Part shown: positions 6,936 to 62,871 of the stretch, one piece after another
Position numbering within the stretch: the stretch's first letter is position 1
Layout of the letters: every line of letters starts with the position of its first letter
Source: Cohnella herbarum
Lineage (GTDB): Bacteria; Bacillota; Bacilli; Paenibacillales; Paenibacillaceae
Assembly (NCBI RefSeq): GCF_012849095.1
Contig: NZ_CP051680.1
Location: forward strand, 5,239,501 to 5,303,500
Direction of reading: 5' to 3'
Length of the DNA: 64,000 nt
Translations under genes and position numbers: made by a program
The notes under the pieces: model-generated
What the model was told of the DNA's origin: nothing
What the model saw: the letters and a program-made list of their open reading frames with translations, nothing else
Databases searched by the model: none

Positions 6936-6960
6936 TTCGCCGTCACTTATGAAACTATCA
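6936..6960 (+). repeat. Partial rlmH-3'-end-like attachment repeat
   Basis: TTCGCCGTCACTTATGA is identical to the core of the other repeats listed at 11906, 28526 and 62083, but similarity is lost after about 18 bases (AACTATCATAGG follows). It has the same orientation as all other copies. It is probably a decayed or recombined junction. Confidence 0.55.
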
Positions 6961-7230
6961 TAGGCCAACTCAACACCGTTGACTCTTAGAATGTTCATGA
7001 TTGTTTTCTCCTTCAGTTAATTTGGCATCGGAAGCTCAGTTAAAGGCAGGAGGCGTGAATCTTCGATTGCTGCAGTCCGATGTCCGATACCTGTCAGGTA
7101 GTCTTGATGACTTGAAAAAGAAATAAAAACAATATTACCCGGGTAAAATATATTTCTCTGTCTTATATAGACGGCATTGAAGGATATCTATAAATGAATG
7201 CAAGATCAGTCATAGAGATTAAAAGTGTTT
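6961..7230. other. Gene-poor stretch with one coding-like fragment
   Basis: No complete gene is seen. On the plus strand at about 7012-7127 there is a coding-looking tail ending QSDVRYLSGSLDDLKKK and a TAA, without a start. It may be the 3' end of a lost gene. The left copy of the long inverted repeat follows. Confidence 0.3.
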
Positions 7231-7477
7231 TTTGAATTAAGCGACTCAGAAATTTAGTGTAAACCTGGAAATCTTGTACACCTAAGTGTAAAATCTACAA
7301 CTAGTTTGGGGAGTTTTTTCTTTCTCATATGACTAAGTGTAAATCCTACAACTAGATCAGGAGAATATTTCGTTCGCAGACGAAATCAATCAATCTAAGT
7401 GTACTTTTTACATTTAAGAGGTGGAAACGAGGAATTTAGATGACACTAAATGTACATTTTACAATTAGATTCTGAGT
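7231..7477 (+). repeat. Long inverted repeat, left copy (about 245 bp)
   Basis: This block matches the reverse complement of 12936-13175 at roughly 90 percent by eye. It contains four copies of a partly palindromic motif of about 24 bp, CTAAgTGTA-N-TACAaCTAG, near 7281, 7333, 7394 and 7444, so spaced 50-61 bp apart. The pair encloses the exporter, XRE and RidA genes. Such reiterated sites resemble transposase-binding arrays at transposon ends, but no transposase is present between them. Confidence 0.8.
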
Positions 7478-7692
7478 GTTGTGAGAATCGAGTATGTATT
7501 TTAGTTAAGCATAGATAGGTGACAGATAACATTCCGGGAACTCTTTAAGCGCTGCTGTTAAAGGCTTTATTAACGAAATAAGTAATAGACCAATAGAAGT
7601 TATCAACAGGTTTAGGATTAAAATATAACGGATTATTTGGTACCGTCTATATAATTTAACAGCGCATTTTTGGATCATCCGTAGAGCGACAT

Positions 7693-7722
7693 CTAAAGGC
7701 ACCCGATATCGGGTGCCTTTAG
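7693..7722 (-). terminator. Perfect 30-base palindrome, probable terminator of the ABC operon
   Basis: CTAAAGGCACCCGAT pairs exactly with its own complement with no loop bases. It lies about 150 bases past the end of the minus-strand ABC operon. T-rich flanks are weak on both strands, so it could be bidirectional. Confidence 0.6.
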
Positions 7723-7873
7723 TCTAGTCTTCACTTCCGAGAATCGGAGATTTCTTTGGCGTTCAATAGACCCAAGCCTTTTACAACATGATTCGTCATC
7801 TGTTTCCTCATTAGCAGCAATCGTTAAACCAATCGAGAAGGAAAGTGCCGTGAAATGAAGGAAAAAAAAGAAC

Positions 7874-8581
7874 TCAAACATGGACTCCCCTTGATCTTGA
7901 CATTTCAGCCAACGACAATTTCCCATCTTCCATTCGGTATACCTTGTCGCAATATTCAAGCATACGCTCATCATGGGTAACCATAATCGCCGCTTTCCGG
8001 CGTGACTTCACCTCATGCGCAATTAGACCAACCACTTCATGGGCGCGCTTGGTATCCAAACTTGCTGTCGGCTCATCCGCCAAGATGACGTTGGGATTAT
8101 TAATTAAAGCACGAGCAATCGCTGTGCGTTGCTTCTCGCCGCCTGATAACTCTTCCGGAAGGCTTTTTAACTTCGAGCCCAGACCCAGCTCTTCCAGCAA
8201 TTTAGCGGCGAATTCCTTATCCTCCCTTTTAACCTTTCCCGACATCCTTTTTACTATTAACAATTGATCAAGAACATTTAAATAAGGAACCAAATTCGAT
8301 GATTGCATAATAAATCCGATTTCTCGTAACCTTATATTAGAAAGTTCCTTCGCTGTAAGCGTAGAGATATTATACCCATTCAGCTTAACATCTCCTTCGG
8401 AGGCCTTAAGCAGCGCTCCTGCAATGGATAAGAACGTACTTTTACCAGACCCGGACGGTCCAACTACAGCAACGAACTCACCCGGCCCCACTGATATCGA
8501 CACATGATCGAGTGCGGCGATTCGATTGCTTCCTTCGGCATAATACTTTGTGACTTCACTCATTTGTAATCCCTTAGTCAT
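7874..8581 (-). CDS. ABC transporter ATP-binding protein, MacB/LolD type (235 aa)
   Basis: Walker A GPSGSGKS near residue 42, Q-loop (GFIMQSS) near 92, signature LSGGEKQR near 145, Walker B VILADEPTASLD near 166 and the switch His in VTHDE near 203. The length and the LolD/MacB-like layout match ATPases that pair with FtsX-type permeases. The start codon overlaps the stop of the upstream permease gene (TAATG), so the two are translationally coupled. The substrate of the exporter is unknown; drug, peptide or lipoprotein export are the family options. Confidence 0.93.
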   Translation of the reverse strand: MTKGLQMSEVTKYYAEGSNRIAALDHVSISVGPGEFVAVVGPSGSGKSTFLSIAGALLKASEGDVKLNGYNISTLTAKELSNIRLREIGFIMQSSNLVPYLNVLDQLLIVKRMSGKVKREDKEFAAKLLEELGLGSKLKSLPEELSGGEKQRTAIARALINNPNVILADEPTASLDTKRAHEVVGLIAHEVKSRRKAAIMVTHDERMLEYCDKVYRMEDGKLSLAEMSRSRGVHV

Positions 8582-9702
8582 TATTCAACCCTCCCAAGCG
8601 CTTTGAGCGGATCAATCTTTGTAATCTTGCGAACAGATACCATCGAACTTAGCATAGCGATAATTAGCAAGATAACAGAATACGTGACGACAAGACTGGT
8701 TTCCAGCCTGAATGGCATACCCTTCGGCATAATGGCAGCCGTTCCATAAGTCAGTAAAATTCCAACTACAATACTGGTCAGCGAAAGCACAAACACTTGC
8801 GATACAATAGCTTTGCCCAGAAATCCGTTACTAGCACCAATGGCTTTCATAATGCCGAACTGGTTGGTCTTCTGCATCGTAATTACATAAAAGAACACCC
8901 CAAGCACGAATGCGGAGATAGCAAGCAGAAATGCAAGCATCATTAAAATAGTACCGTTCTCTTCTTTGTACCCCGGCATTCCTTGAACGGCTGCCGCTCG
9001 GGTAACCGTATCCGTATTTGATAGCTTACTGTTAATTAAATCCGGATCGATATTCTTGCCTTGTAACATAATCGCATTAACGGGCCCTGCGACTCCTTTA
9101 TCCGAACCCGGAGCCGCGAAGGTAATCTTCCGCCATTCAGCCATCGGAGTAAATACCGATGCAACGTGGTTATAGGTCTGATTCTCGACATATCCGATAA
9201 TCGTCAAGGATTCCGTCGTTCCATCTAACTGAAAAGTGTCGCCAATGTTATAGCCCTCATCCTTCATGGTTGAATTCACCACGACACCCGTAGGGTTCCC
9301 GGAAGATAGGCTTTCCCCTTCTACGATAGCCGGTTCCAAGAAGCTTCCTGGGTTAATTCCAATAATCGCGATGTCCACCTTATCTTCATTCTTGGTGCTT
9401 TGCTCCTTCAGCGCCGTTGCCATCGTTGTTCCCATAGGTGCGGCAGCACTCACATTTGGTAGCAGCTCCACTTCCGCCATCAATTGATCAGACAGTAACG
9501 ACTTGCTCATTGAAGACTGCGCCCCTTCTTCAAAGACGACATAATCAGCCTTCATGGTCTTGAATGTTGATGCAGCTAGCGTAGATAACCCATTCCCCAA
9601 ACCTGATAAGATGAATACCAACCAAGCGATTAGTACAAAAATAATGACGATCATTAGAAATCTCATTTTACTATTCATCAATTCCTTCATAGCTAAAAAC
9701 AT
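8581..9702 (-). CDS. ABC transporter permease, FtsX/MacB family (373 aa)
   Basis: One N-terminal membrane helix (about residues 12-35), a large extracytoplasmic MacB-like domain (about 40-245), then three C-terminal helices (about 250-360) typical of FtsX permeases. The tail KITKIDPLKALGRVE is characteristic of the family. AAGGAG precedes the ATG at 9702. The gene is first in an operon with the ATPase and lies downstream of a tetR gene. Two palindromes in the 120-bp gap probably serve as operators. Confidence 0.92.
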   Translation of the reverse strand: MFLAMKELMNSKMRFLMIVIIFVLIAWLVFILSGLGNGLSTLAASTFKTMKADYVVFEEGAQSSMSKSLLSDQLMAEVELLPNVSAAAPMGTTMATALKEQSTKNEDKVDIAIIGINPGSFLEPAIVEGESLSSGNPTGVVVNSTMKDEGYNIGDTFQLDGTTESLTIIGYVENQTYNHVASVFTPMAEWRKITFAAPGSDKGVAGPVNAIMLQGKNIDPDLINSKLSNTDTVTRAAAVQGMPGYKEENGTILMMLAFLLAISAFVLGVFFYVITMQKTNQFGIMKAIGASNGFLGKAIVSQVFVLSLTSIVVGILLTYGTAAIMPKGMPFRLETSLVVTYSVILLIIAMLSSMVSVRKITKIDPLKALGRVE

Positions 9703-9726
9703 TTTCTTTTCAACTCCTTATCATTT

Positions 9727-9802
9727 TTGACACATGTGTCAATTTAATAATACCGTTACACTTATCCCCGCTAATTAAACACCATAAATGACACTTGTGT
9801 CA
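9727..9802 (-). promoter_or_regulatory. Paired TetR-type operators and promoter of the exporter operon
   Basis: A perfect 16-bp palindrome TTGACACATGTGTCAA lies at 9727-9742, and TGACACTTGTGTCA, palindromic apart from its central TT, lies at 9789-9802. On the minus strand the TTGACA of the upstream palindrome is followed 18 bp later by TTTAAT, a plausible promoter overlapping the operator. Placement between tetR and the permease supports repression of the exporter. Confidence 0.75.
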
Positions 9803-9822
9803 AATTAATTTCAAGACTGCGG

Positions 9823-10389
9823 CTAGCTCTTTGCTCCCCCAATCCACATTTGAAACAACAGCTTTCCCCATTCAGGTGTAGGGATATTCAACATATTAGG
9901 CGTATTAATTAAGTTGAAAAAAACACCAATAAGTACAGGCAGTGGGATATCTTGGCGCAGGCTTTTATCCTGTTGTGCCCGTTCAAACAAGCGTGATAAT
10001 TGAATTTTGAGAGTCATATGTGCTTCCTCAATAAATTCAAGATCTCTCGCTGCCGCAGAAGAATTAGTAGTATTAATTTTACCAGCATCTCCTAGAAGTT
10101 GATGGAGCGTAGATTCTTCTACGTAAATGAGAAGTAACTGCTCGAGAGCGTCCATAGGATCAGTCTCATCAATTGCTGATGAATTTTCTAATACCGTTGC
10201 TATTACGCGTTTCATACAAGCAGCAACTATCTCTTCTTTATTAGAGTAATATTGATAAATAGTGCTCCGGGCTCCGGATAGATGCTGTGAGAGCAGTTTG
10301 AGATGAAATCCGTCGTAGCCATGCTCAAGCACTAATTTTTTTGTCGTATTCAACAGCTCTGTCTCAGTAAAAGATTGTTTTCTTCCCAC
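9823..10389 (-). CDS. TetR-family repressor (188 aa)
   Basis: The N-terminal helix-turn-helix is clear: FTETELLNTTKKLVLEHGYD, then ARSTIYQYYSNKEEIVAACM (about residues 6-60). The C-terminal region is the helical ligand-binding part, typical in length for TetR. It lies directly upstream of the ABC exporter operon on the same strand, with two matching palindromes in between. It is most likely a drug- or metabolite-responsive repressor of that exporter; the ligand is unknown. Confidence 0.9.
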   Translation of the reverse strand: MGRKQSFTETELLNTTKKLVLEHGYDGFHLKLLSQHLSGARSTIYQYYSNKEEIVAACMKRVIATVLENSSAIDETDPMDALEQLLLIYVEESTLHQLLGDAGKINTTNSSAAARDLEFIEEAHMTLKIQLSRLFERAQQDKSLRQDIPLPVLIGVFFNLINTPNMLNIPTPEWGKLLFQMWIGGAKS

Positions 10390-10686
10390 TGAATCTCTTC
10401 CTTTTCATCATATAAGGATCTGTGTTAGAAGTGAGTGCAGGTCATATCGGCTTGATCAAGCAATCGCTGAACTCCAAGCCATGTTCACCACTATGTACTA
10501 ACGCAGTCTTCTACAAGAGATGTTTTTTCATTTATACAAAATGATTGACGCTACGATCGGCGATACAGTACCATTATAACCCGTTATCGCCAATTCGGTC
10601 AGTGAAGTCAAACTATTCACAACCTCAACGGATTTTAAATTCCTTACCAACGTAAGCTAATACAAGTGGCACAATGAATAACATCT

Positions 10687-10818
10687 TTAATTCGTCTTTG
10701 GTAGCGTTGTTGTTTGAACAGGAAATGTCCCATAATAATTATTAATCGTTTGGCCAACAAAATAGACGTTATTCTCCTTCAATCATAATCCCGTTCCACA
10801 ATAAGGACATTTGAATCC
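10687..10818 (-). pseudogene. Degraded small zinc-ribbon gene
   Basis: The minus strand encodes FKCPYCGTGL, an in-frame TGA, then LKENNVYFVGQTINNYYGTF and a tail to a TAA at 10687. The CPYC pair suggests half of a zinc ribbon. There is no start codon or ribosome binding site upstream, where stops occur at once. The remainder of 10390-10964 holds no supported gene. A hairpin GGCGATA/TATCGCC spans 10559-10591. Confidence 0.35.
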
Positions 10819-10964
10819 TTATTTATTAAAGCAAATTCTATCTTAGAAACACGGACTGAACCACGGACTGTGCATCCGGATTGTATGGTTATTGTATGTC
10901 CTTTCATCCCTCCGTTATACCAAGTATGGTTGCTGTGGTTGCTTACAGCTCGGCGTTATTTCAG

Positions 10965-11399
10965 TTACATTTTTTTAGCATAATGATTAAACAGGAAGAT
11001 TCCTAATCCGATTTGAAAGACAAAAACGCCGCTTAGCACAGTGACTACAATCTTATCTATTCCTATTAAACTAAACACGACAGTCAATGCCATTAGGATG
11101 TAAAAAATAATAATATTTGTTTTCCAGCCTGCTTTTTCTTTTATTCTTATCTTCCGTTCGTCTTTAGCCTCAATTTTACTCGTTCTAATTTTTGCATCGT
11201 ACTTCACTTTGTTCTTAGGCTTATTCAGCCATAACAAATGCACCATATTTCCTAATCCGAGCACCACAAGAACTGAACCAACGCCAAAGAGCAAGCCGGC
11301 AATTCCTTTTAGCTTCTCCTCGATTAAAATAAATTCACCCATATAAGCCGCACTAGCACCAACAATTGTTAAGAGCACCCATCTACCTATCGTTTTCAT
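10965..11399 (-). CDS. Small membrane protein paired with an XRE regulator (144 aa)
   Basis: The start is placed at the ATG at 11399, preceded by GAGGAGGAGCGG. Four hydrophobic segments (about residues 7-25, 32-55, 88-108 and 115-138) flank a basic cytoplasmic stretch rich in Lys/Arg (KIRTSKIEAKDERKIRIKEK). It overlaps the end of the upstream regulator gene by 17 bases, so the two are co-translated. Pairs of a short XRE regulator and a small four-helix membrane protein are common in Firmicutes; the role is unknown, perhaps a membrane sensor or anti-regulator. Confidence 0.75.
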   Translation of the reverse strand: MKTIGRWVLLTIVGASAAYMGEFILIEEKLKGIAGLLFGVGSVLVVLGLGNMVHLLWLNKPKNKVKYDAKIRTSKIEAKDERKIRIKEKAGWKTNIIIFYILMALTVVFSLIGIDKIVVTVLSGVFVFQIGLGIFLFNHYAKKM

Positions 11400-11601
11400 T
11401 TTCCCGCTCCTCCTCATAAATGAAAATATCTTCTATGTTCATTTCAAAAAAACGTGCAATCTTAAATGCAAGAATGATGGATGGGTTATACCTACCATTT
11501 TCAAGTGAACCAATCGTTTGCCTGGATACTTCCAACTTATCCGCTAGTTCTTCTTGTTTTATTCCAAGCTTCTTTCTTATTTCTTCTAGTCGGTTCTTCA
11601 A
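11383..11601 (-). CDS. Short XRE-family DNA-binding protein (72 aa)
   Basis: A TTG at 11601 follows GAGGAG by seven bases and gives the usual N-terminus of this family, (M)KNRLEEIRKKLGIKQEELA. A full helix-turn-helix covers about residues 3-58 (LADKLEVSRQTIGSLENGRY, then NPSIILAFKIARFFEMNIED). No other domain is present. Proteins of this size usually repress their own operon, here with the downstream membrane protein. An upstream in-frame ATG exists but lacks a ribosome binding site. Confidence 0.88.
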   Translation of the reverse strand: MKNRLEEIRKKLGIKQEELADKLEVSRQTIGSLENGRYNPSIILAFKIARFFEMNIEDIFIYEEERENENDR

Positions 11602-11905
11602 ACAATCACTCCTCGAAAAGGAAAGCTTACTTTCCTTAAGCATACAAACAATTAACATAAATGTAAAGCTTACTTTCCATTGATTTTCAAAAAAATTATG
11701 GGCTTGTATATAAGGCTGTAAACAAATAATTTTAGGTGTAATTAGACATATAATCGGATTTTCTTGTAGCGGGTTTCCGCGTATTCATACATCCTTTACG
11801 AGTTGGCCTTTTTAATCTCTTTTTCTGGTCACAATAATCGCCCCTCTATAGCCCCTTCCTCCATCACTCCTCCAGTACTCTACACACTTCTTGACAACCG
11901 AATTC

Positions 11906-11952
11906 TTCGCCGTCACTTATGATAAGATTCACCGTATCACTCAAACAGCGAA
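11906..11952 (+). repeat. rlmH-3'-end-like attachment repeat
   Basis: 47 bp beginning TTCGCCGTCACTTATGATAA and ending AGCGAA. The complement of its core reads as the last rlmH codons (Tyr-His-Lys-stop), like the true rlmH end at 62392. The left flank shares GACA..C.GAATT with the copy at 62083. Confidence 0.8.
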
Positions 11953-12062
11953 ATACATAATGCCTTATACTATCAGTCGGGTTCTACTACAGTTTTTCTT
12001 GAGTTCATGTTATTATTTTGTTGCAAGGTTTTTGATTATAAGTATGAAGGGGGGAATACCTA

Positions 12063-12170
12063 ATGAAGAAGAGATCGATTAAATATTTATCTTTTGGTAT
12101 TGGGTATTCAACTGCTGTTTTTTTCTAGAATTAATATCGACGGGATAGGTCTGTCATCTATTAATTGAAA
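12063..12170 (+). CDS. Small ORF with an export-like N-terminus (35 aa)
   Basis: ATG preceded by a strong AGGGGGGAA site. The peptide starts MKKRSIKYLSFGIGYSTAVF, basic then hydrophobic, like a truncated signal peptide, and ends after 35 codons. It could be a small membrane peptide or the 5' remnant of a broken secreted-protein gene. It lies 70 bases upstream of the RidA gene. Confidence 0.35.
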
Positions 12171-12242
12171 TTAAAAAACAGTGAAAATATTTAGCCTATC
12201 TATAGTTAGATATTTTCTACTTATAAGGAGACTTTACAAACG

Positions 12243-12644
12243 ATGAACTTAAATAATAATGTAATTCATAGATATAATCCGGAAAATATAGCGAAACCCG
12301 TTGGAAACTATAGTCATGTGACTAAAATAAGCAGAAACGCTGAAATGTATGTTTTTTCCGGTCAGATTGGTATCGATCAGAACAACAATATCCCCACGGA
12401 TTTTAATCAACAAGTGACAAATACAATGAGTAATATTGTTGAAATCCTTTCCTCTCAAAAGTTAACTCCTGATCATGTCGTTAAAATCAACATTTGGGCC
12501 ACAGAAGAAATTGATTGGGATCATTTCAATGCCATTTGGAATAAAGTATTCGGTCCCACTCCTCCTTCAATGACGGTTGCTTATATTAAAGGATTAGGTT
12601 TACCTGAATTAAAAATTGAATTAGATGTTTGGGCTGCTGGTTAA
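12243..12644 (+). CDS. RidA/YjgF/YER057c-family protein (133 aa)
   Basis: Full-length RidA fold: an N-terminal strand with the FSGQIGID segment (about residues 37-45), and a C-terminal half with HVVKINIWATE and PPSMTVAYIKGLGLPELKIE. Canonical RidA deaminases have a catalytic Arg at the position aligned to the Ala/Tyr of this MTVAYIKG strand, and I do not see it, so this may be a non-archetypal Rid subgroup. A typical AAGGAG site precedes the ATG. A terminator follows at once, so it is monocistronic or the end of a short unit with the small ORF at 12063. Confidence 0.85.
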   Translation: MNLNNNVIHRYNPENIAKPVGNYSHVTKISRNAEMYVFSGQIGIDQNNNIPTDFNQQVTNTMSNIVEILSSQKLTPDHVVKINIWATEEIDWDHFNAIWNKVFGPTPPSMTVAYIKGLGLPELKIELDVWAAG

Positions 12645-12669
12645 AATTCAAATATGATTCCCTTTACGC

Positions 12670-12708
12670 AAAACGTGCCTTAGAAGCGATTCTAGAGGCA
12701 CGTTTTTT
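12670..12708 (+). terminator. Terminator of the RidA gene
   Basis: AAAACGTGCCT pairs with AGGCACGTTTT around a short internal region, followed by T residues on the plus strand, about 25 bases after the stop. Confidence 0.85.
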
Positions 12709-12845
12709 CTCTATCATTCAGTACCGATTACTACTGGTCATAAAGCACCTGACGTTACGTTCCATATGTATCTAATATAAAAGTTAGTTTCATTCATGCC
12801 TCCTTAGACAATATCAAGTGGGACCTTGATTCGAACTTCGTCGGG

Positions 12846-12931
12846 GCTATGATCAAGCCTACATAATAATGCACGGAAGGCCACCGAAGTAATCGGCGGC
12901 CTAAACGAGCGTGTTCAACTATCGTTTCCCG
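12846..12931 (+). repeat. 87-bp dispersed repeat, copy 1 (mobile-element debris)
   Basis: It aligns with 62190-62276 at about 80 percent. Both start GCTATGATCAA, contain a GC-rich hairpin ending CGGCGGCCT, and end TTCAACTATCGTTTCCCG. This looks like the 3' end and terminator of a lost insertion sequence. It abuts the right copy of the long inverted repeat. Confidence 0.65.
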
Positions 12932-12935
12932 GCAC

Positions 12936-13175
12936 ACTCAAAATGTAATTGTAAAATGTACATTTAGTGTCGTCCAAATTCCTCGTTTCCACGTTCTAAA
13001 TGTAAAAAGTACAATTAGATCGATTGATTTCGTCTGCAATCGAAATATTCTCCTGATCTAGTTGCAGGTTTTACACTTAGTCATAGGAGAAAGAAAAACT
13101 CCCCAAACTAGTTGTAGGTTGTACACTTAGGTGTACAAGATTTCCAGGTTTACTCTAAATTGCTGAGTCGCTTAT
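12936..13175 (-). repeat. Long inverted repeat, right copy (about 240 bp)
   Basis: Reverse complement of the block at 7231-7477 with roughly 90 percent identity, including all four CTAA.TGTA...TACA..TAG motifs in the same order and spacing. It lies directly downstream of the stop of the giant SLH gene. The outermost shared bases are TAAGCGACTCAG.AATTTAG in both copies. I see no clear target-site duplication. Confidence 0.8.
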
Positions 13176-13191
13176 TTCAAATGCCACTCGT

Positions 13192-49643: not shown

Positions 49644-49656
49644 GCGTTAATATTAT

Positions 49657-53672: not shown

Positions 53673-53712
53673 CAAAATGATGTACGGTTACCCGTATCAT
53701 TCTAATCGAATG

Positions 53713-53758
53713 CAAAAAAAACTGGCGACTGTTGAATACAGGCGCCAGCAACTTTTTT
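53713..53758 (-). terminator. Terminator of the MBG-SLH gene
   Basis: CTGGCG pairs with CGCCAG around a partly paired loop. On the minus strand eight T follow, and an A-run precedes the stem (bidirectional look). Confidence 0.8.
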
Positions 53759-56700
53759 TACAGATATCCAAGCTTGCCGAGCAAACGGCTCAGCATAAGT
53801 GCCATTTCTGCGCGGGTTGCGGTTTGATGCGGCTTAAAATTGCCTGCATGGTCGCCTTTAACGATGCCGTAAGCAAGCATTTGCCGCACTGCCTCGGCAG
53901 CCCATTTCGACACCTCGCTCGAATCGTTCAGCAGCGCCGAACCATTTTCCGGGGCATTGGAGGCGGAGCCGCTATCGTATTCGATCGCTCTCGCAAGGAT
54001 GACCGCTAGTTCTTCCCTTGTAACAAAATCATTCGGGCGGAAGCTTCCGTCCTCGTATCCGGTCACCAACCCGGCCGCTGCTGCGGAGGAAACCGCCGTT
54101 CCGTACCATTGCCCCGCAATATCGGATAAAGCTGCGGGCTGAGCCGCCGCGGGGATACCTAGCGCCCTGACCAGCAGCGCTGCTGTCTCCGCTCGCGTTA
54201 AGCGGGCATTCGGATCGAAGATGCCCTCTCCTTTTCCTTCAAAAATGAGCATAGAAGCCAGCTTCTCCGCTTCGTATCTCGCCCAGTGTCCTTGCATATC
54301 GGCAAAAGCTTTCCGGTTAACCATATTCACGTACAAGCCGTCGCTGCTGACGGGAAGCAACGCATAGGCCTTCCCCCCAACATTTTCATATCGGACCGGA
54401 ACATATTGCAGCTGCCGAAGCTGCTCGTTCCATACCGTTACAATTGTATCTGCGTCGGTATTTGGAACCGCAATGCGTCTTTCTACTTTGCTGCCTAATT
54501 GGATAATGGCAATTTCAGCCCCGTCGCCATTGCTCATAACAATCTTAAACTGAACAGGACCAGACAATAATTGTGCACCCCGGGATTTCAGCTCTGTCAA
54601 TAAAGAAGCATCAACCTCAATCTCTCCAGCATATATCGCAAAGTTGAGTTTATCGCCGTCCTTGCCTGCATTTTGCTTATCTGCGGCAGCAGCCAGCTCG
54701 GAGACAGGCAGCCTCATTGTGCCGCCGGCCGTTGACACTTGAAACGCAAACGAAGGATTCAACCGGAGCAGTTTGGTTGCCGTTTCTGCGCTCAGCTCGA
54801 AATATCCCTTTGCTGTATTCTTAACAAATTCAATCCATCCGGATTTCACTTGAGACTGCGTAAGTTTAATTCGTTCCTTCTTATTATTCTCGGCGATGAA
54901 ATCGATATAAAAGTCCGATTGCGGCTGCTCAGGCTGCTTAGGTTGCTCGGGCTCTTTAGGCTGTTCAGGCCCCACAACAATTGGATTATTCCTTAAAACA
55001 ATCAATTGAAACTGGCGGCTGTCCGATTCCAGCCCTTTCGTAACTGTAGCCGTTAGCGTAACCGTTTGGTCTCCGGCCCCATACGATGGCCGTGATACCG
55101 AACCATTAGCGGGATTAATCAGCTCCGTTCGGCTTGAAGCCCATGTAATGGCAGAGCCGTTCAAGCCTGCAGCCGGGAGCGTCAGTCCATTGCGCACTTG
55201 CGTCTCGTCATCTCCGGCTGCGTAACCGATCGCAAGCAGCGCCATATCTCTTGTTACCGCCTCTTTGTCCGTCATATCGGCAGCGATGATCGTTACATTG
55301 TATTGGACGTTATAGGTTGTCTGATTCGCATCAACCGCTGCTTCCAGCGTTACGGCTGAATCGCCCGCCGAGTAAGCCGGCCGATGCACGGCTCCTGTTG
55401 TTGCATCAAGCAAGCCGTTGTCTGAGGACGTCCAGCGGATCGGACGGCTTGCAGCATCTGTGCCCGGCAGCCCAACATTCGATTTCACCGCACCGGCCGT
55501 CTCTCCTGCGGCAAACACCGGCTTTGGAGCGGCATAGACAGTTAACTTGCCTGTGTCGGTTATGAGCTCATAATTGGACAAAAGGTTCAACGGATCGAGA
55601 AGCTGTGCAGTAATATCATAAACACCCTCAGCGCTAACTATCGTCGCCGCCGATTCATACTGTGCAGTGATGGAGTCGCCGGCGACTACGCCTGTAAGCG
55701 TGCCGTCGAATTGCGGATTCACATTGCCGACCCATCGAGACGCCGAATTCGGCGCAACGCGAAGCTCGGCCTTCGTAACTGTAAGCCCGCCTTGCTCAAT
55801 GACAACATGATAGTTGCTCAGCTTGCCTCCCGGATCAGATAAGGCCGGAACGATCGGATACAATCCCACCGGGCTTGACACGACTGCTGCTGTCGAATAG
55901 GACGCCAGAATAGCATCTCCATTAACAAGACCGGTGATCGAACCCGATAGAGATGGATTGCTTTGCCCATATGCCCGAGCTTGATCCGCAGCAGTGACGG
56001 TTAAGAGTGCCGGCGTCACGGTTAAAGTGCCCGGCGAATAAGTGATTGCATACTTCGTTGATGTCAAACCGCTGGCTGTTAGGTCATAATTGCCGATTGT
56101 GCTGGATGCGTCGGCGTGAGTCGAATACACTGGCTGCCCAAGCGAGGAGGCCGTGTCCCATGCCATCAGTCCGCCAAAGCTCATTGTGAAATTGCCATTA
56201 GACGTTCCATAGGGTCTAGTCGCATTGTTAGGCGTTACAGTGAGCGGGGCTTTGTTGACCGTAAGCGTCGTTGTCTGCTCCGCCGCAGGGTAAGGATACG
56301 AAGCTGCTGTCGCTACTTTCAGTTCATAGCTGCCCGCAGCTTGTCTAATTGAATAGCTACCTGAACCATAACCCGCTGCATTCGTCGTTAAGTAACCTAC
56401 CGAGCTTCCATCAAGGTAGACATTAACCCTCTTTCCTGCAAGCGGCCCTTCCGGAGTTGTCAGCGTCGCCGATATCATTACCGCTTGACCGTATGTACCG
56501 GTTATGGGAGAAACGGCGAGCGTAGTCGTATAATCCCTTGGAGAATCACCGACATAAGTGGTAAAGCCCATATCATAATCGGACCAATTGGAAGCCGTAT
56601 AAGCTCTTCCTCCTGCATATACGTCGGTCGCATAGTGCTTCCATGTCGTTACCGGCGTATCACCGATGGAAGACGTTAAGTGCATCGTATACTGCTGTCC

Positions 56701-57123
56701 TGCCTGCACCTGTGCCGGCTGATCGAACAAAGCGGACAGCCAGCCTCCTGGATTGTACGGAATATTGCTACTGCCAAAAGTCGCTGAAGCAAGCACCGTT
56801 CCGGACACGCTTTGTCCTGCATAGATACTGAGCGTAAACACAATTCCCGAGCTCCCGTAATCCGCCATATACAAGTCAATTTGATTCAAATAGCCGGACT
56901 TGCCTGCCGTAAAGCTTTGAGCAAGTCCGTTCGCCCGATACGTGCTCCCCGGATCGCCTGCTCCGGATGTTTGGTCAGGCGCATCAGCAGCGGCTGCCGC
57001 CAATGCGGGCAGCGCGGCAAGTATCGGCACAAGCGTAAGTATCAATGCCAGCAAAAGGCGGACCATCCAAGATGTCGTCCGACCGCAAATGGCTTCCTTC
57101 TTTTCCGTATGTCCCCAAGCCAT
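53758..57123 (-). CDS. Secreted SLH protein with MBG-like Ig domains (1121 aa)
   Basis: The start is placed at ATG 57123 (MAWGHTEKKE); a GTG at 57135 or 57147 is possible, since the GGAG site lies 14 bases before the ATG. A long basic N-region and hydrophobic helix (about 20-42) form the signal peptide. An N-terminal jelly-roll-like domain (about 45-205) is followed by an Ig-like domain (about 210-290), three MBG-type repeats (about 290-540, with AYGQSNPSLSGSITGLVNGD) and two Ig-like domains of the 'DxxLLAIGYAAGDDETQV' kind (about 550-715). A PEQPKEPEQPKQPEQPQ linker, a beta-rich domain (about 730-920) and three SLH domains (about 925-1118) follow. Cell-surface structural or adhesive role inferred. 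Confidence 0.9.
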   Translation of the reverse strand: MAWGHTEKKEAICGRTTSWMVRLLLALILTLVPILAALPALAAAAADAPDQTSGAGDPGSTYRANGLAQSFTAGKSGYLNQIDLYMADYGSSGIVFTLSIYAGQSVSGTVLASATFGSSNIPYNPGGWLSALFDQPAQVQAGQQYTMHLTSSIGDTPVTTWKHYATDVYAGGRAYTASNWSDYDMGFTTYVGDSPRDYTTTLAVSPITGTYGQAVMISATLTTPEGPLAGKRVNVYLDGSSVGYLTTNAAGYGSGSYSIRQAAGSYELKVATAASYPYPAAEQTTTLTVNKAPLTVTPNNATRPYGTSNGNFTMSFGGLMAWDTASSLGQPVYSTHADASSTIGNYDLTASGLTSTKYAITYSPGTLTVTPALLTVTAADQARAYGQSNPSLSGSITGLVNGDAILASYSTAAVVSSPVGLYPIVPALSDPGGKLSNYHVVIEQGGLTVTKAELRVAPNSASRWVGNVNPQFDGTLTGVVAGDSITAQYESAATIVSAEGVYDITAQLLDPLNLLSNYELITDTGKLTVYAAPKPVFAAGETAGAVKSNVGLPGTDAASRPIRWTSSDNGLLDATTGAVHRPAYSAGDSAVTLEAAVDANQTTYNVQYNVTIIAADMTDKEAVTRDMALLAIGYAAGDDETQVRNGLTLPAAGLNGSAITWASSRTELINPANGSVSRPSYGAGDQTVTLTATVTKGLESDSRQFQLIVLRNNPIVVGPEQPKEPEQPKQPEQPQSDFYIDFIAENNKKERIKLTQSQVKSGWIEFVKNTAKGYFELSAETATKLLRLNPSFAFQVSTAGGTMRLPVSELAAAADKQNAGKDGDKLNFAIYAGEIEVDASLLTELKSRGAQLLSGPVQFKIVMSNGDGAEIAIIQLGSKVERRIAVPNTDADTIVTVWNEQLRQLQYVPVRYENVGGKAYALLPVSSDGLYVNMVNRKAFADMQGHWARYEAEKLASMLIFEGKGEGIFDPNARLTRAETAALLVRALGIPAAAQPAALSDIAGQWYGTAVSSAAAAGLVTGYEDGSFRPNDFVTREELAVILARAIEYDSGSASNAPENGSALLNDSSEVSKWAAEAVRQMLAYGIVKGDHAGNFKPHQTATRAEMALMLSRLLGKLGYL

Positions 57124-57287
57124 TGTTCTTCTCACTTCTCCTCTCACAATCGTTTCCAGATTATTCTATCATCACGGCGTCTAGCAAATTATTAAAGAGT
57201 AATAATATGGAACGTAATCAATATAAAAGAACTCTATACCCTAAGGGTGTTAAATTTCTTCTCCATAGATCCGCATTACTTTTAATT

Positions 57288-57405
57288 ATAAAGAACTTTT
57301 CCCGAACTTACTGTGACTGCGATTACAAATTGTAATTTATATCAGGATCAATTCAGCGAAGAAGATCAGTTGGAAGTAGGCAGAACAATTGGCGAGATTG
57401 TATAA
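57288..57405 (+). pseudogene. Orphan coding fragment near an attachment-like repeat
   Basis: The plus strand encodes about 35 residues ending QFSEEDQLEVGRTIGEIV and TAA, without a start. It looks like the 3' end of a lost gene. A weak repeat-like sequence (GTGATAAGGTTC) follows at about 57465-57477. Confidence 0.35.
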
Positions 57406-57540
57406 TTCTGCTACATATCAGGCTGAACGCGATCGTCACCTCGATCTCTCCGTTTCGCTCCATGCGTGATAAGGTTCGTTCTCTCATCGGGGATTCCCTC
57501 ATAGAAGTTTAAGTTCGATGTCCGAGAAATACTCAAAAAT

Positions 57541-57587
57541 TTCCTCTCACTTATGATACGGTTCAGCTTAACGGGTCTATCGGCGAA
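57541..57587 (+). repeat. rlmH-3'-end-like attachment repeat
   Basis: 47 bp; from CACTTATGATACGGTTCAGC through to ATCGGCGAA it matches the copies at 28526 and 62083 closely. The left arm reads TTCCTCT in place of TTCGCCG. Confidence 0.8.
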
Positions 57588-57651
57588 AAATCCGCCACGT
57601 CGTGTGCGCGTCAATCTCCTTGTTCACTTCAATCCGAACTCAAGAGGAATA

Positions 57652-57870
57652 CTACATATGATGTCGATCATAAACGGTTGCCAATATTGTTATAAACCAA
57701 GTACCGTTTTCCTTCACAGTAAGAAATTCTGTCTTTCATTTCCGCAGGTGCTATATTTCGCTTTACATTCCTCATTAAACGGGCCAAAGCCCTCAACTCC
57801 CGTAATATCGGAAGAATGAATTTCAAAGATCTTGTCGAAAAACAATTCGTGGCAATCCGTACGCTAGCAT
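57652..57870 (-). pseudogene. Frameshifted gene remnant
   Basis: The minus strand encodes ELFFDKIFEIHSSDITGVEG, then FGPFNEECKAKYSTCGNERQ in one frame. After a one-base shift the next frame reads EFLTVKENGTWFITILATVY and ends at 57652. No start codon with a ribosome binding site is visible. It resembles a small unknown protein truncated at its 5' end. It lies between an attachment-like repeat and the TelA operon. Confidence 0.45.
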
Positions 57871-57981
57871 AATATGATAGTATTTAGTGATAGGAACGGA
57901 TTTCCAGATCGGCCATATATTCATCGTGAGCGGCTTGCGTGGCCGGACAATCCTACACCGGAGTGAAAGGGGCTGCAAGAC

Positions 57982-58719
57982 GTGGCTGCAAACAATTACA
58001 TAAAAATGCTGGGACTAACGGCCGCTGTGGCTGTCGTCGATATCCTTACGCTCTCTCCCGCCTTCGCCGGCGTGATGATAGGCGGAGGCTCGCTGGAGAC
58101 CGCGCTGGGCGTTACGCTGCTGGTCGCCAGCGCGATCGCGCTCATATACGGAAGCTACAACTGGCTGTACAAGGCGAAAATCGTATTGACCCCGGCCCGG
58201 ATCGAGACGCGCGAAGACTTCTTGGCCGCGCTGGCGCCTTACAGCCGAATCCGGGCGCTTGCGGAGGACGTCTCACTGACGCTGGAGCAGATGGAGCGCA
58301 TGGACAAGAAGAAGGCGACCCTGCTCAAGGTGCTGCAACAGCGGTTCGACCCCGTAGAGATGAGCTTCGCCAAGTTTGCGTCCGTCGCGGACGAGGTGGA
58401 GAATCTGTTCTACTTGAATATCAAGAGCGTGCTCAATAGGCTGGTCGTGTTCGACGAATCCGAGTACGAACGAGTGATGACTCACAAGTCGGCGCGGTAC
58501 TCGCCCAAGCTACTGCAGGAGAAGACCGCATTTTACACCGAATACATGGCTTATATCAAGAACGCGATCGGTACGAACGAAGAGATGCTGCTGAAGCTCG
58601 ACAAGCTGCTGCTGGAGATTTCCCGATTGGACAGCATCGAGCCGGGCGACATCGAGCAGATGCCCGCCATGCTGGAGATCGATTCGTTAATCAAGCAAAC
58701 CAAATACTATAAACAATAA
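57982..58719 (+). CDS. Membrane protein of the TelA operon (245 aa)
   Basis: GTG start with an AAAGGGG site. Two hydrophobic segments near the N-terminus (about residues 10-32 and 38-60) are followed by a cytoplasmic helical region of about 180 residues with coiled-coil-like stretches. The gene position beside telA and the layout (short membrane anchor plus helical domain) resemble XpaC-type partners of TelA, but sequence identity to XpaC is not something I can confirm. It lies 13 bases before the VWA gene; three genes form one operon. Confidence 0.75.
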   Translation: MAANNYIKMLGLTAAVAVVDILTLSPAFAGVMIGGGSLETALGVTLLVASAIALIYGSYNWLYKAKIVLTPARIETREDFLAALAPYSRIRALAEDVSLTLEQMERMDKKKATLLKVLQQRFDPVEMSFAKFASVADEVENLFYLNIKSVLNRLVVFDESEYERVMTHKSARYSPKLLQEKTAFYTEYMAYIKNAIGTNEEMLLKLDKLLLEISRLDSIEPGDIEQMPAMLEIDSLIKQTKYYKQ

Positions 58720-58732
58720 GGGGTGCGATACA

Positions 58733-60421
58733 TTGAGCAGCGGCAAGAGATTTCTGTTGGTTACTGGCATTATTCTAGTCATCGTGTTCGTCATCGTCTA
58801 CTTGGGCGTTAATCTGTCCACGAACTGGGGCAAGTCCGACAAGCAGATGGCGTCGGAGGATGCGGTTAAGCGGCTGAGCAAGCTGTATGGCAATATCGAT
58901 GTGACGACGGAGGCGCCTGTCAAAGGACAGATCAATCTCGATCCGGTCGATGTAGCCGCCTCTTTGCCCGATATCTCCAAGTTCCCGATCACGGCGGACA
59001 GCACGACAACCGATTATGCCGAGATTTTTTCCTCGACGGAGAAGTCGGGGACAGGCGATGACGGCTGGCTGACGGATGTCGCGAAGGATTTCAACAAGGC
59101 CAAAATCACCATAAACGGAAAGCCTGTCTCGGTCAAGCTGCGCAATATTGCTTCGGGCACGGCTGCGGATTATATCCGGTCGGGCAAGTACGTGCCTGAC
59201 GCCTTCACGCCCTCCAACGAGCTGTGGGGCGAGATGGTGAAGGCATCCGGCGTCAAGACGCAGCTCATAACGAAGCGGCTCGCCGGCAACGTCCCCGGTA
59301 TCGTCATCTCGAAGGCGAAGCACGACTCGTTCGTACAGAAATACGGCGAGGTGACCGTCAAGTCGGTGATCGACGCGATCGCGGCGGGAGAGTTCTCTAT
59401 GGGTTACACGGACCCTTTCGCCAGCTCGACCGGCCTGAACTTCCTCGTGACGACGCTGCAGACGTTCGACAGCGCGAACCTGCTCAGCGACAAGGCCGTT
59501 CAGGGGTTCGAGAACTTCCAGGCCAACGTGCCGTTCATTGCATCCACGACGCTGCAGATGCGGGAAGCGGCCAAGTCGGGCGCGCTCGACGGCTTCGTGC
59601 TGGAGTATCAAACCTATGTCAACACGGCGGAGCTGAAGGGAGCCTACGTATTCACCCCGTTCGGCGCGCGGCATGACAGCCCGCTCTATGTGCTTGGCAA
59701 CGTCTCCGCAACCAAGCTCGAGATCATTAAGAAATTCTCCGAGTTCACGGCCCAGGCCAAATACCAGGAGACCGCCAAGGATAAGGGCTTCAACGGACTT
59801 GAAGATTATCAGCCCAAGCTTGACAAGGTCGAAGGCAGCGTCCTGATCGCGACCCAGAAGGTGTGGAAGGAAAAGAAAAACGGCAGCAAGCCAATCGCAG
59901 CGGTATTCGTAGCTGACGTCTCGGGCAGCATGGACGGCGAACCGCTGAACCGTCTCAAGGAATCGCTGAGCAAGGGGCAGAAGTATCTAGGCCGGGATAA
60001 TAGCATCGGCCTCGTGTCTTACTCGAGCAATGTTACGGTCAACCTGCCGATCGGCAAGTACGATACGAACCAGCAGTCGATGTTCGTCGGCGCGGTGGAC
60101 AGCTTGCAAGCTGGAGGCAACACCGCGACCTTCGACGGCGTCGTCGTGGCACTCAAGCTGCTGCAGGACTACGCGGCGGCCAACCCGAACGTAAAGCCGC
60201 TGATCTTCGTCCTCAGCGACGGAGAGACCAACGGCGGCCTCAAGCTCAAAGAGATTCGGGATCTCATCGAGTATTACAAGATTCCGATCTACACGGTCGG
60301 CTACAACGCAGACATCGCAGCGCTTCAGGATATCTCAAGCATCAACGAAGCGGCCAGCATCAACGCGGATACGGACGATGTCGTCTACAAGCTCGGCAAT
60401 TTGTTCAACGTTCAAATGTAA
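58733..60421 (+). CDS. Membrane-anchored protein with substrate-binding-like and VWA domains (562 aa)
   Basis: TTG start after AAGGGG. An N-terminal helix (about 6-28) anchors the protein with the bulk outside. Residues about 75-370 resemble a type 2 periplasmic binding protein (AADYIRSGKYVPDAFTPSNE, MGYTDPFASSTGLNFLVTTL). A von Willebrand A domain (about 390-555) has a complete MIDAS: DVSGSMDGE, a Thr in GGNTATFDG and the Asp of FVLSDGETNGG. VWA proteins of this type are linked to TelA in Ter-like stress systems; the ligand of the binding domain is unknown. Confidence 0.88.
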   Translation: MSSGKRFLLVTGIILVIVFVIVYLGVNLSTNWGKSDKQMASEDAVKRLSKLYGNIDVTTEAPVKGQINLDPVDVAASLPDISKFPITADSTTTDYAEIFSSTEKSGTGDDGWLTDVAKDFNKAKITINGKPVSVKLRNIASGTAADYIRSGKYVPDAFTPSNELWGEMVKASGVKTQLITKRLAGNVPGIVISKAKHDSFVQKYGEVTVKSVIDAIAAGEFSMGYTDPFASSTGLNFLVTTLQTFDSANLLSDKAVQGFENFQANVPFIASTTLQMREAAKSGALDGFVLEYQTYVNTAELKGAYVFTPFGARHDSPLYVLGNVSATKLEIIKKFSEFTAQAKYQETAKDKGFNGLEDYQPKLDKVEGSVLIATQKVWKEKKNGSKPIAAVFVADVSGSMDGEPLNRLKESLSKGQKYLGRDNSIGLVSYSSNVTVNLPIGKYDTNQQSMFVGAVDSLQAGGNTATFDGVVVALKLLQDYAAANPNVKPLIFVLSDGETNGGLKLKEIRDLIEYYKIPIYTVGYNADIAALQDISSINEAASINADTDDVVYKLGNLFNVQM

Positions 60422-60451
60422 GTCATAGAACCTTGGGAGGGTGAGCGCGAG

Positions 60452-61591
60452 ATGTCATTTACGATGGAAGTACCGAGCCAGGAAGAGATCAAATTTGCGA
60501 TTGAGGAAGAGGTCAAACCGGTACCCGAGGAGGTCGCCAAGCTTCGGCAGATGGCGGATGCCAATGTCCAGGCGATTATGTCGCTCGATATCGAGTCGCT
60601 CGACAAGCGCAAGGACATCCTCCAGTCGATCGACACGTTCGGCATGGGCACGATGCGTTCCTCTTCGGAGAAAAATCAGCTGTTGCAAATTACCGTAGGC
60701 AATCTGTCCAAGACGGGCGACGAAGGCGGGCAGGTCGCCAAGGGATTGGCGGAGCTGAACATTCAGCTTAAGGATCTCGACCCGAGCGCGGTCGACTTCG
60801 CCAAGCGCGGGCTGCTCGGCAAGCTGTTCAATCCGTTGCGGGCGTACTTCGCGAGATACGAGAAGGCCGATAACGTCATCTCCGACATTATCGTCTCGCT
60901 GGACAAAGGCAAGACGACGCTCAAGAACGACAATACGACGCTCGAGATCGAGCAGCAGGCGCTGCGCGACCTGACGAAGAAGCTGCAGAAGGAAATCGAG
61001 CTCGGCACGCTCATGGACGCTTCGATCGAGCAGCAGGTGGAAGCGGCGAAGGTGCGGAGCGAAGATCCCGACAAGATCCGTTTTATTACGGAGGAGGTCA
61101 TGTTCCCGCTGCGTCAGCGGCTGATGGATTTGCAGCAGATGCAAGTCGTCAATCAACAGGGCATTATGGCGATCGAGGTTGTCGTCCGTAATAACAAGGA
61201 GCTGATTCGGGGGGTCGACCGCGCCAAGAACGTGACCGTATCGGCGCTCAAGATCGCCGTCATCGTCGCGAGCGCGCTCTATAATCAGAAGATCGTGCTC
61301 AAGAAGATCGAGCTGCTCAACCAGACGACGAACGAGCTGATCGCCGGCACGTCCCGGATGCTCAAGGATCAGGGTGCAGCGATTCACAGGCAATCGCTGG
61401 AGGCCAATATCTCGGTCGATACGATGAAGCAGGCGTTCACCGATGTGCTGTCGGCGCTCGATTCGATCAGCGCCTACAAACAGGAGGCGCTCCCTAAGAT
61501 GCGCGAGACGATCAATCAGTTCCGCGAGCTGGCCGATTCCGGCGAGAAGCAGATCCAGCGTCTCGAGCGGGGCAACAAGCTGGGGCTGTAG
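60452..61591 (+). CDS. telA: TelA-family toxic anion resistance protein (379 aa)
   Basis: ATG with GGGAGGG upstream. The whole chain is helical and matches TelA: LDIESLDKRKDILQSIDTFG near the N-terminus, GLLGKLFNPLRAYFARYEKA near 120, and RLMDLQQMQVVNQQGIMAIE with VVRNNKELIRGVDRAKNVTV around 225-265. TelA proteins are associated with tellurite and other stress resistance and act at the membrane by a mechanism that is not settled. Third gene of the operon, 30 bases after the VWA gene. Confidence 0.92.
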   Translation: MSFTMEVPSQEEIKFAIEEEVKPVPEEVAKLRQMADANVQAIMSLDIESLDKRKDILQSIDTFGMGTMRSSSEKNQLLQITVGNLSKTGDEGGQVAKGLAELNIQLKDLDPSAVDFAKRGLLGKLFNPLRAYFARYEKADNVISDIIVSLDKGKTTLKNDNTTLEIEQQALRDLTKKLQKEIELGTLMDASIEQQVEAAKVRSEDPDKIRFITEEVMFPLRQRLMDLQQMQVVNQQGIMAIEVVVRNNKELIRGVDRAKNVTVSALKIAVIVASALYNQKIVLKKIELLNQTTNELIAGTSRMLKDQGAAIHRQSLEANISVDTMKQAFTDVLSALDSISAYKQEALPKMRETINQFRELADSGEKQIQRLERGNKLGL

Positions 61592-61858
61592 ATGCTGTAG
61601 ACGACTCGGCGCTCCTTTGCTCTGGAGTTCGTCCCGGAGGATCAGAATGATGCTGTGATTAAGCGCAAGGAGCAGACCACACGGGATATTATGAGTCGAT
61701 TGGCTTGGGTGAAGTTTATGCGCAGTTGGAAGCTCGGGAGGACACAAAGAATTGATACGGGAAAGGGCAAAGGAAAACGCTGTGATGGCGTTCTCCTTTA
61801 ATTGGCTTGGTGAAGCAGCGTGGGTGACTGTTTGGAGCGGATATTAATTATATTGCCC
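61592..61858 (+). other. Spacer after telA with an open fragment
   Basis: The frame at about 61620-61800 (SALEFVPEDQNDAVIKRKEQ and on) is open for about 60 codons but has no start signal and overlaps the terminator, so it is probably debris. Confidence 0.3.
61769..61799 (+). terminator. Probable terminator of the TelA operon
   Basis: AAAGGAAAACGC pairs with GCGTTCTCCTTT with one mismatch, about 180 bases after the telA stop. Confidence 0.6.
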
Positions 61859-62046
61859 TTATACTTCAATCATATATTCTTTAATAATATCCATCATAAA
61901 ATCAGCTTTTCTTGGTGTGTAGCCGGGCGATTGGCAAAATACCATATAATCATAATTTTCTTCACTCACATACGTCTTCCATGGTATTAAGTTAAATGGA
62001 ATTTCTTTGTCTACACTGATGGGCGGTATTTTCCCACTCCACCACT
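61859..62046 (-). pseudogene. Truncated gene fragment ending next to an attachment-like repeat
   Basis: The minus strand is open for about 62 codons up to TAA at 61859 and reads VDKEIPFNLIPWKTYVSEEN, then YDYMVFCQSPGYTPRKADFM. It has good protein character but no start; an in-frame stop (62047-62049) precedes it. The 5' part is missing exactly where the repeat at 62083 begins, consistent with truncation by recombination. Confidence 0.5.
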
Positions 62047-62082
62047 CCTACAGGCCTCTAGACCCTACTCGACACCAGAATT

Positions 62083-62130
62083 TTTCGCCGTCACTTGTGA
62101 TACGGTTAAGCTTAACGGGTCTATCGGCGA
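62083..62130 (+). repeat. rlmH-3'-end-like attachment repeat
   Basis: 48 bp starting TTCGCCGTCACTTGTGATAC and ending CTATCGGCGAA. It contains a perfect palindrome GTTAAGCTTAAC in the centre. It lies 302 bp from the true rlmH end and in the same orientation. Confidence 0.85.
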
Positions 62131-62189
62131 ATGATGGGAAAGCAACTGCCACGGCGCATAATTGCCAAACTTTTATATCCGATCCAAGA

Positions 62190-62276
62190 GCTATGATCAA
62201 ACCTTCATACATATGCACTGAAAGCCGTCGAGATACTCGGCGGCCTACTTGTCGGTGATTCAACTATCGTTTCCCG
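62190..62276 (+). repeat. 87-bp dispersed repeat, copy 2 (mobile-element debris)
   Basis: Counterpart of 12846-12931, with the same CGGCGGCCT hairpin arm and the ending TTCAACTATCGTTTCCCG. It lies between the attachment-like repeat and rlmH. Confidence 0.65.
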
Positions 62277-62383
62277 TTAGTTCGATGCCTTCCAAACAGA
62301 CGATTTCTCTAGAGTGCCTCAGGCTTTTCGTATCAGTAGAAACCCTAGAGACGGGTACATTTATTTTCTCGAAGGGGGAATTT

Positions 62384-62409
62384 TTTCGCCGTCACTTATG
62401 GTAAGGTTC
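62384..62409 (-). repeat. rlmH 3'-end attachment-like core
   Basis: The minus strand reads GAACCTTACCATAAGTGACG followed by GCGAA. It spans the last five codons and stop of rlmH and matches the left half of all the dispersed repeats. In staphylococci SCC elements integrate at this position of rlmH; here the match is by sequence and location. Confidence 0.8.
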
Positions 62410-62871
62410 CCCCCGATTAATCCTAAAAGCCCGATAGATCTGCTCAACCAATACGAGTCGCATTAGCTGATGAGGGTAGGTGAGCCGGCCGAAGCTCAGC
62501 TTCTTATCCGCGCGTTTGAGTACGGCTTCGGACAGACCGAGCGAGCCGCCGATGACGAAGGCGACGTGGCTCTTGCCGTAGGTGCCGAGTTTATCGAGAT
62601 GCGACGCGAGATCTTCGGACGACCATAGTTCTCCGCCGATGGCAAGAGCGACAACGTGAGCATCTTCCTTGATCTGGGCAAGTATACGATCACCTTCGCG
62701 GCCGACCACTTGTCGCTCTTCCGCCGGGCTGAGAACTTCCGGCGCTTTCTCGTCGGCTACTTCGGTTAATGTTATGCGCGCATAAGGGCCAAGTCGTTTG
62801 ACGTATTCCGCGATCCCTTGAACAAGATAGGACTCCTTTAATTTACCGACGCTGACAATCTGAATATGCAT
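62392..62871 (-). CDS. rlmH: 23S rRNA pseudouridine-1915 N3-methyltransferase RlmH (159 aa)
   Basis: The start is placed at ATG 62871 ([16 protein letters not shown]), preceded by GGGAGG; the frame extends upstream without a start signal. A SPOUT methyltransferase: [20 protein letters not shown] and [18 protein letters not shown] form the trefoil-knot SAM site, and the C-terminus [20 protein letters not shown] continues to GEPYHK. RlmH methylates position 1915 of 23S rRNA on assembled ribosomes. The last codons double as an attachment-like site. Confidence 0.96.

Follow-up and report, generated by a model that had tools for sequence, protein, structure and literature searches.

An array of rlmH-end sites in Cohnella herbarum

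The DNA analysed here (the window) is a stretch of 64,000 nucleotides from the 8.52-Mb, two-contig genome of Cohnella herbarum (NZ_CP051680.1, positions 5239501-5303500; G000:C1:5239501-5303500), in which repeats of the 3′ end of rlmH form a row. The rlmH gene, encoding a 23S rRNA methyltransferase and recovered by protein search, is the apparent integration target and occupies 62392-62895 on the minus strand, with its stop codon at 62392 and a C-terminus reading EPYHK. Seven sites of ~50 bp with an 18-bp core, the rlmH end included, were found in the window in a single orientation, together with a half site at 6936. At up to three mismatches the core matched seven times, and 100 dinucleotide shuffles averaged 0.04 matches; a chance origin of these repeats is excluded. 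An initial annotation had reported same-orientation repeats whose one half is the complement of the rlmH end, and had proposed a stack of elements resembling the staphylococcal cassette chromosome (SCC); the repeats were confirmed at all of its positions, the copy at 6936 being a 17-bp half only, and so was their likeness to the rlmH end. On the evidence presented below, the stack is very probably an SCC-like island of composite build and without a recombinase, and such islands are numerous in its order.

All of the sites read on the minus strand. The site at the rlmH end (62384-62433) combines the rlmH arm, a GA dinucleotide at 62408-62409 and a right half that carries the cassette arm CGGCGAAA past the stop codon. 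The internal sites lie at 62083-62132 (class I arm, with TA at 62107-62108 instead of GA), 57539-57588 (perfect class I arm), 49535-49584, 47657-47706 (class III arm), 28525-28574 (class I arm with one mismatch) and 11905-11954 (class III arm), and the half site at 6936-6952 has kept the 17-bp rlmH-like right half alone. GA and a core with no more than three mismatches are retained in five of the six internal sites. The row was thought to start at 6936; it continues to the left of the window, where a worn site at approximately -12.8 kb (G000:C1 ~5226720) consists of a perfect class II arm and, behind it, a truncated core. When the whole genome was searched at up to two mismatches, the matches listed comprised six in the forward and none in the reverse orientation, all within the rlmH array. 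At up to three mismatches 12 matches were obtained, seven in the array and five scattered, each of the scattered ones having three mismatches; the reversed-pattern control for these gave 1 and 3.

To place the array in context, 148 genomes including C. herbarum (G000) were surveyed. Among the matches listed, a protein search recovered rlmH in 144 of the 148, again including C. herbarum; of the 143 other rlmH-positive genomes, two with weak or partial matches (G024 and G140) were left out, and removal of nine loci with <5 kb downstream of rlmH left 132. At a threshold of four mismatches, 124 rlmH sites, that of the window included, were aligned with 169 internal sites. The two sets agreed from GA to approximately +29 and diverged to the left of GA, where the internal sites carry cassette arms. 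The agreement spans GA, the last rlmH codons and the stop codon, then continues more weakly for ~12 bp; coding constraint does not account for the part past the stop codon, which fits the presence of a cassette arm behind many rlmH genes.

The left arms fell into classes I (TTTCGCCGATAGACCCGTTAAGCT), II (ACTTGCCGTTACAGACAGCGCGGT), III (ATTTCGCTCTATAGATGATACGGT) and IV (GTTTACCC...). Requiring a fit of at least 15/24, the 187 internal sites comprised 53 of class I, 37 of class II, 41 of class III and 8 of class IV, with 48 assigned to none. Within a class, the outermost bases of the left arm recur in inverted form in the right arm (TTTCGCCG/CGGCGAAA and ACTTGCCG/CGGCAAGT). Since homology breaks at GA and many sites have the symmetry ACGGT-GA-ACCGT, GA is the likely crossover. 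The available text of PMC6222049 reports that the central C of TATCATAA is essential for CcrAB, and this base was kept in 100% of the rlmH sites and 98% of the internal sites. By their sequence, the repeats are thus identified as SCC-type recombination sites.

An exact class I site was present in 36 named stretches (each up to 8 kb) from Paenibacillus, Cohnella, Gordonibacillus and one Ectobacillus. The core was found at up to three mismatches in 32 of the 36, with both orientations together in none, and in the four stretches that include rlmH the orientation matched every time. The Ectobacillus site, in E. panaciterrae (L078), lies outside the Paenibacillus/Cohnella group, in an 8-kb stretch from which rlmH is absent.

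Site arrays and recombinases in related genomes

Downstream of rlmH in the 132 genomes (2.37 Mb), 163 sites were detected in the forward orientation and none in the reverse, compared with 4 and 2 in mononucleotide shuffles. The core was present at rlmH in 100/132 genomes at up to three mismatches, and 87/132 had one or more additional sites in the stretch covered. The conserved synteny across the genus that was named in advance as grounds for abandoning the SCC-like interpretation was not seen: gene content downstream of rlmH varied among genomes of the same genus (20 loci, up to 20 kb each), and exchange was evident between close Paenibacillus genomes. The rlmH genes of Paenibacillus sp. HGH0039 and P. 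chitinolyticus are 99% identical over 470 nt (96% over a 611-bp alignment with flanks). Between rlmH and the site at 2592/6103, one genome of this pair carries one cassette, of 2.0 kb, where its partner carries three that total 5.5 kb; homology resumes at that site, behind which 8.5 kb are common to both at 99%. A strict in-register comparison for gain or loss across species was set aside: only 11 site pairs qualified, three of them comparing rlmH with an internal site. Fourteen sites were counted across ~64 kb at rlmH in HGH0039, and 13 in P. chitinolyticus on two contigs shown to be adjacent by comparison with HGH0039.

Similarity also crossed larger distances. A Cohnella and a Paenibacillus of the HGH0039/P. 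chitinolyticus comparison, which belong to two families and have rlmH genes 67% identical, share the start of one cassette, from the site onwards, at 97% identity over 1.9 kb. For C. herbarum itself, the gene directly after the worn -12.8 kb site shares 94% identity over 896 bp with a gene in a Paenibacillus elgii cassette, and another, at -18.7 to -17.5 kb, shares 93% identity over 1224 bp with a gene located between two sites in HGH0039; these Paenibacillus cassettes are short (1.95 and 1.5 kb, respectively), and the accompanying rlmH genes are 66% and 65% identical to that of C. herbarum. Within the window, a hydrolase module spanning 28933-30909 has a counterpart with 91% identity over 1977 bp in the rlmH island of G020, a genome of the same genus with an rlmH 67% identical to that of the window. 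This homology stops at 30909, beside an arabinose operon, so that the module looks like a separate former cassette.

A second case concerns the ABC-F protein gene of the window (49657-51396). Full-length relatives with 76-88% amino-acid identity were found in 25/132 islands, and in two of them (G061 and G138) the gene stands nearly alone between two sites. In most of the islands with an ABC-F relative, homology to the interval at 49537-57541 stops behind this gene, at ~51410-51501, suggesting that the interval probably represents two or more fused cassettes. ABC-F and rlmH identities are positively correlated (Spearman 0.50, n = 26, p = 0.009), and therefore ABC-F alone is weak as proof of transfer.

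Proteins of the large serine recombinase (LSR) family PF07508 were found at least once in 112/148 genomes among the matches listed, and in several the gene is no more than a few kb from rlmH. NCBIfam CcrB was the best match for each of the six rlmH-adjacent LSRs tested (four genomes), with 244-417 bits and E-values of 1e-72 to 1e-124, scores that are all under the curated cut-off of 900 bits. Such genes are scarce within the arrays. In 134 sequences (the 132 rlmH-downstream loci, some of them extended, the window and one further contig) a full-length LSR was detected in 11 and any piece in 27, with none in the window. The 181 closed intervals, which include six from the window, extra stretches of G126 and G009 and the second contig of G143, held an intact LSR in 7 cases and pieces only in 10, indicating that most intervals are without recombinase.

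A tree was built from 16 full-length LSRs, from 11 loci plus L013. One clade (G013, G133 and G147; support 100/99) covers two genera or more and has class I arms at all three loci, a second (G121, G122 and G145; 95/94) has TTACC-type arms throughout, and the pair G019 and G033 (96/93) has TTCGCC-type arms in both. Across 13 LSR cassettes recombinase identity covaries with arm identity (Mantel r = 0.65, 0/20000 permutations), making the class I sites of the window expected substrates of a G013/G147-type Ccr. The sole LSR of C. herbarum was considered as the missing Ccr and ruled out by its low CcrB score and its long branch in the tree.

Origin and mobility of the stack

The window shares with SCC insertion at the rlmH 3′ end and flanking direct repeats of that end, and it has no ccr gene complex of its own. 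It does contain what characterizes composite or pseudo-SCC elements, namely tandem units without ccr at rlmH, bounded by SCC-type attachment (att) sites. In the mechanism we propose, a circular cassette would bear a site composed of a left arm, GA and a right half imitating the last rlmH codons. A Ccr-type LSR would join the circle at GA to the end of rlmH or to an existing site, such that the final codons and the stop of rlmH now come from the incoming cassette and the old end is handed to the far side of that cassette; repeated rounds would generate a row of cassettes in a single orientation. The C. herbarum stack, if mobile, would have moved in trans, with the Ccr for arrival or exit supplied from elsewhere and, for class I, presumably of the type present in Cohnella caldifontis and P. 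elgii.

Several observations weigh against this reading. No ccr gene was found in the window, as the initial annotation had stated, and the single PF07508 protein of the genome is encoded 3 Mb from rlmH and is weakly Ccr-like (CcrB score 88.9 bits). Neither the exact class I pattern nor that of class II was found in viral contigs. No edge was found at the left end of the island, where homology to relatives is patchy, and C. herbarum entered the comparison as one strain, the cassette exchange described above having been seen in another genus. The internal site closest to rlmH has TA where the others have GA and is possibly inactive. The inverted ends give a mixed result: over the outer 8 bases, the match across closed intervals was 4.76, compared with 3.87 under random re-pairing (0/5000) and 4.14 for two arms sharing a junction (p = 0.005), whereas pairing an end with the adjacent cassette in its array gave 4.53 (p = 0.22), and the same-junction test split by genus, family and order gave p = 0.049, 0.16 and 0.065, respectively. 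In the window, two of the six closed intervals have matched inverted ends (7/8 and 8/8), while the other four score 3-4/8. The end-match tests therefore indicate that cassettes within an array tend to be of similar class, and they provide moderate evidence for individual intervals. Intervals of the window with unmatched ends may be fused cassettes that lost a site, or worn ones. The proposal that each interval is a cassette thus needs softening, as not every interval is a single intact one: two have matched ends, and homology to relatives breaks inside two of the others.

The same imperfections are what an alternative of another kind, a repetitive extragenic palindromic (REP) or miniature inverted-repeat transposable element (MITE)-like sequence resembling the rlmH end by chance and scattered by a transposase, would draw upon: the short repeat is partly inverted, no gene is recognised in a 301-bp unit next to rlmH, and four of the six intervals have unmatched ends. 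This explanation is hardly tenable in view of the fixed orientation (163 versus 0), the confinement to the rlmH array of all six genome matches at up to two mismatches, instead of dispersal in both orientations, the start of homology at one dinucleotide and the tracking of arm sequence by Ccr clades. The preference of the initial annotation for an SCC-like over a REP/MITE origin is thus upheld by sites that are tied to rlmH in one orientation and by Ccr-like recombinases in the islands of relatives. Cassettes could also have been swapped by homologous recombination between repeats or flanking genes, and the available text of PMC6222049 describes an enterococcal element mobilised in this way as well, via shared insertion sequence (IS) elements. 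We consider such swapping improbable as the explanation here, because the breakpoints lie at the att core, the repeats are only ~50 bp long and the arms covary with the recombinase clade.

A dead relic, in which old SCC-like insertions are now inherited vertically and no longer move, is rather unlikely and is the alternative that draws on the state of C. herbarum itself: the genome lacks ccr, intervals look fused, the sites at 6936 and -12.8 kb are worn, GA is replaced at 62107-62108, and ABC-F identity follows rlmH identity. Against it stand the segments that share 91-94% identity with islands in genomes of only 65-67% rlmH identity, which indicate acquisition after the hosts split, and the five internal sites with intact GA and a well-kept core. 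Our preferred interpretation remains a composite SCC-like island whose units would have been moved by recombinases acting in trans.

SCC is known chiefly for carrying methicillin resistance in staphylococci. Staphylococcal composite and pseudo-SCC elements are inserted at the rlmH 3′ end as tandem units parted by rlmH-end repeats, some of them without ccr, and in each of these features the window resembles them. It differs from the staphylococcal islands in that no ccr is present and no Ccr-like protein was found elsewhere in the genome, that a stack combines several arm classes, and that the cargo consists of surface proteins, sugar use, TelA and ABC-F. By way of analogy only, a chromosomal integron likewise holds a row of passenger cassettes in the same orientation served by few recombinases, whereas the recombinases here are LSRs and the cassettes are of operon size.

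An SCC-like composite at rlmH in Paenibacillus pinistramenti was published in 2023 (PMC10061031); the available text of that paper, which also mentions composite and pseudo-SCC elements of staphylococci, describes tandem islands with more than one rlmH-end repeat at the same site, in a host of the same taxonomic order as C. herbarum. The P. pinistramenti island has, according to that text, a Pol-SSB pair, a helicase and two LSRs, in contrast to the recombinase-free window. The expectation that an SCC-like locus in a Paenibacillaceae-type genome would be notable was therefore borne out for its SCC-like character and not for its rarity, given this published case and the stacks in 87/132 genomes. 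In the part of PMC6222049 available, the Enterococcus cassette chromosome (ECC) shares the rlmH 3′ end, ~50-bp att sites with conserved TATCATAA and attR inverted repeats, with multiple attR sites in 16/32 elements; it differs in that complete elements are defined by ccrAB and in host order and cargo. A literature search, which covered few subscription papers, found no survey of such stacks in Paenibacillales. The kind of island is thus known already, and what is apparently new is the extent of the stacks, the rarity of recombinases and the link between arm classes and recombinase clades.

Paenibacillales have the same docking site as staphylococci, with long stacks, several end classes, matching recombinase clades and cassettes that mostly lack a recombinase. 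A broader proposal, which we put forward tentatively and with doubt slightly outweighing confidence, is that the rlmH end in this order may be an open dock for cassettes. These cassettes, most of them without a recombinase and many of them short, would form a shared pool in which the arm class ties each to one Ccr clade; they would be stacked, and exchanged in trans across genera and families, and the SCC of staphylococci would be one branch of this wider system. A cassette without ccr may still be mobile, and it becomes testable by which Ccr a given cassette is moved and in what way those lacking a recombinase spread.

Gene content of the intervals

The intervals range in GC content from 35.5% to 54.2%, and their gene content was assigned with Pfam. 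Next to rlmH, the 301-bp unit (62083-62384), with class I ends matched at 7/8, has no recognised gene and no special RNA fold by folding energy (z = 0.35). Approximately 130 bp of its non-coding sequence recur in relatives just before the distal site of cassettes, with class I-type arms in all seven sites examined (G021, G123, G032, G143, G131, G016 and G026); the segment was also found where no site was detected nearby. It is perhaps an accessory region for recombination. The adjoining cassette (57541-62083), whose class I ends match at 8/8, encodes VWA-domain and TelA proteins (PF00092 and PF05816; genes at 57982-61591). The interval at 49537-57541 (end match 3/8) contains, in addition to the ABC-F gene, genes for an aquaporin (51569-52264), a Cass2-like protein (52881-53360) and an SLH surface protein (53758-57147).

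The 1.9-kb interval at 47659-49537 (end match 4/8) has the lowest GC content (35.5%) and one open reading frame without a Pfam match (48054-48605). Recombinase debris had been suspected there and was not confirmed, the best piece having E = 0.27; the interval holds instead an exact 29-bp copy of the 3′ end of ssrA, the transfer-messenger RNA (tmRNA) gene, at 49476-49504 on the minus strand. The tmRNA gene of the genome (ARAGORN, Rfam) ends at ~C1:6066371, with its 3′-end sequence at C1:6066343 and a second copy 1.2 kb downstream, at C1:6067577. These copies suggest that ssrA-targeted elements may exist in the C. herbarum genome.

The largest interval (28526-47659; end match 4/8) carries an L-arabinose-type operon encoding a two-component system, an ABC transporter, an isomerase, a kinase and an arabinofuranosidase, together with a gene for a lectin/glycosidase-like protein and the hydrolase module described above. 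Further left, the interval at 11906-28526 (end match 3/8) encodes a giant SLH protein of 2964 aa, an NHL/SLH protein, a MalT/LuxR-type regulator and a small L-PSP-family protein, and the low-GC stretch at 6936-11906 (40.1%) an ABC exporter with TetR and HTH regulators. No RNA families or tRNAs were detected in the window. Of seven proteins given to PADLOC for defence genes, six had no match, and the seventh gave two weak CARF-model matches in the part that Pfam assigns to a LuxR-type HTH. Four large SLH-domain surface proteins are encoded within 60 kb, in three intervals (901-5130, 13192-22086, 22097-25420 and 53758-57147).

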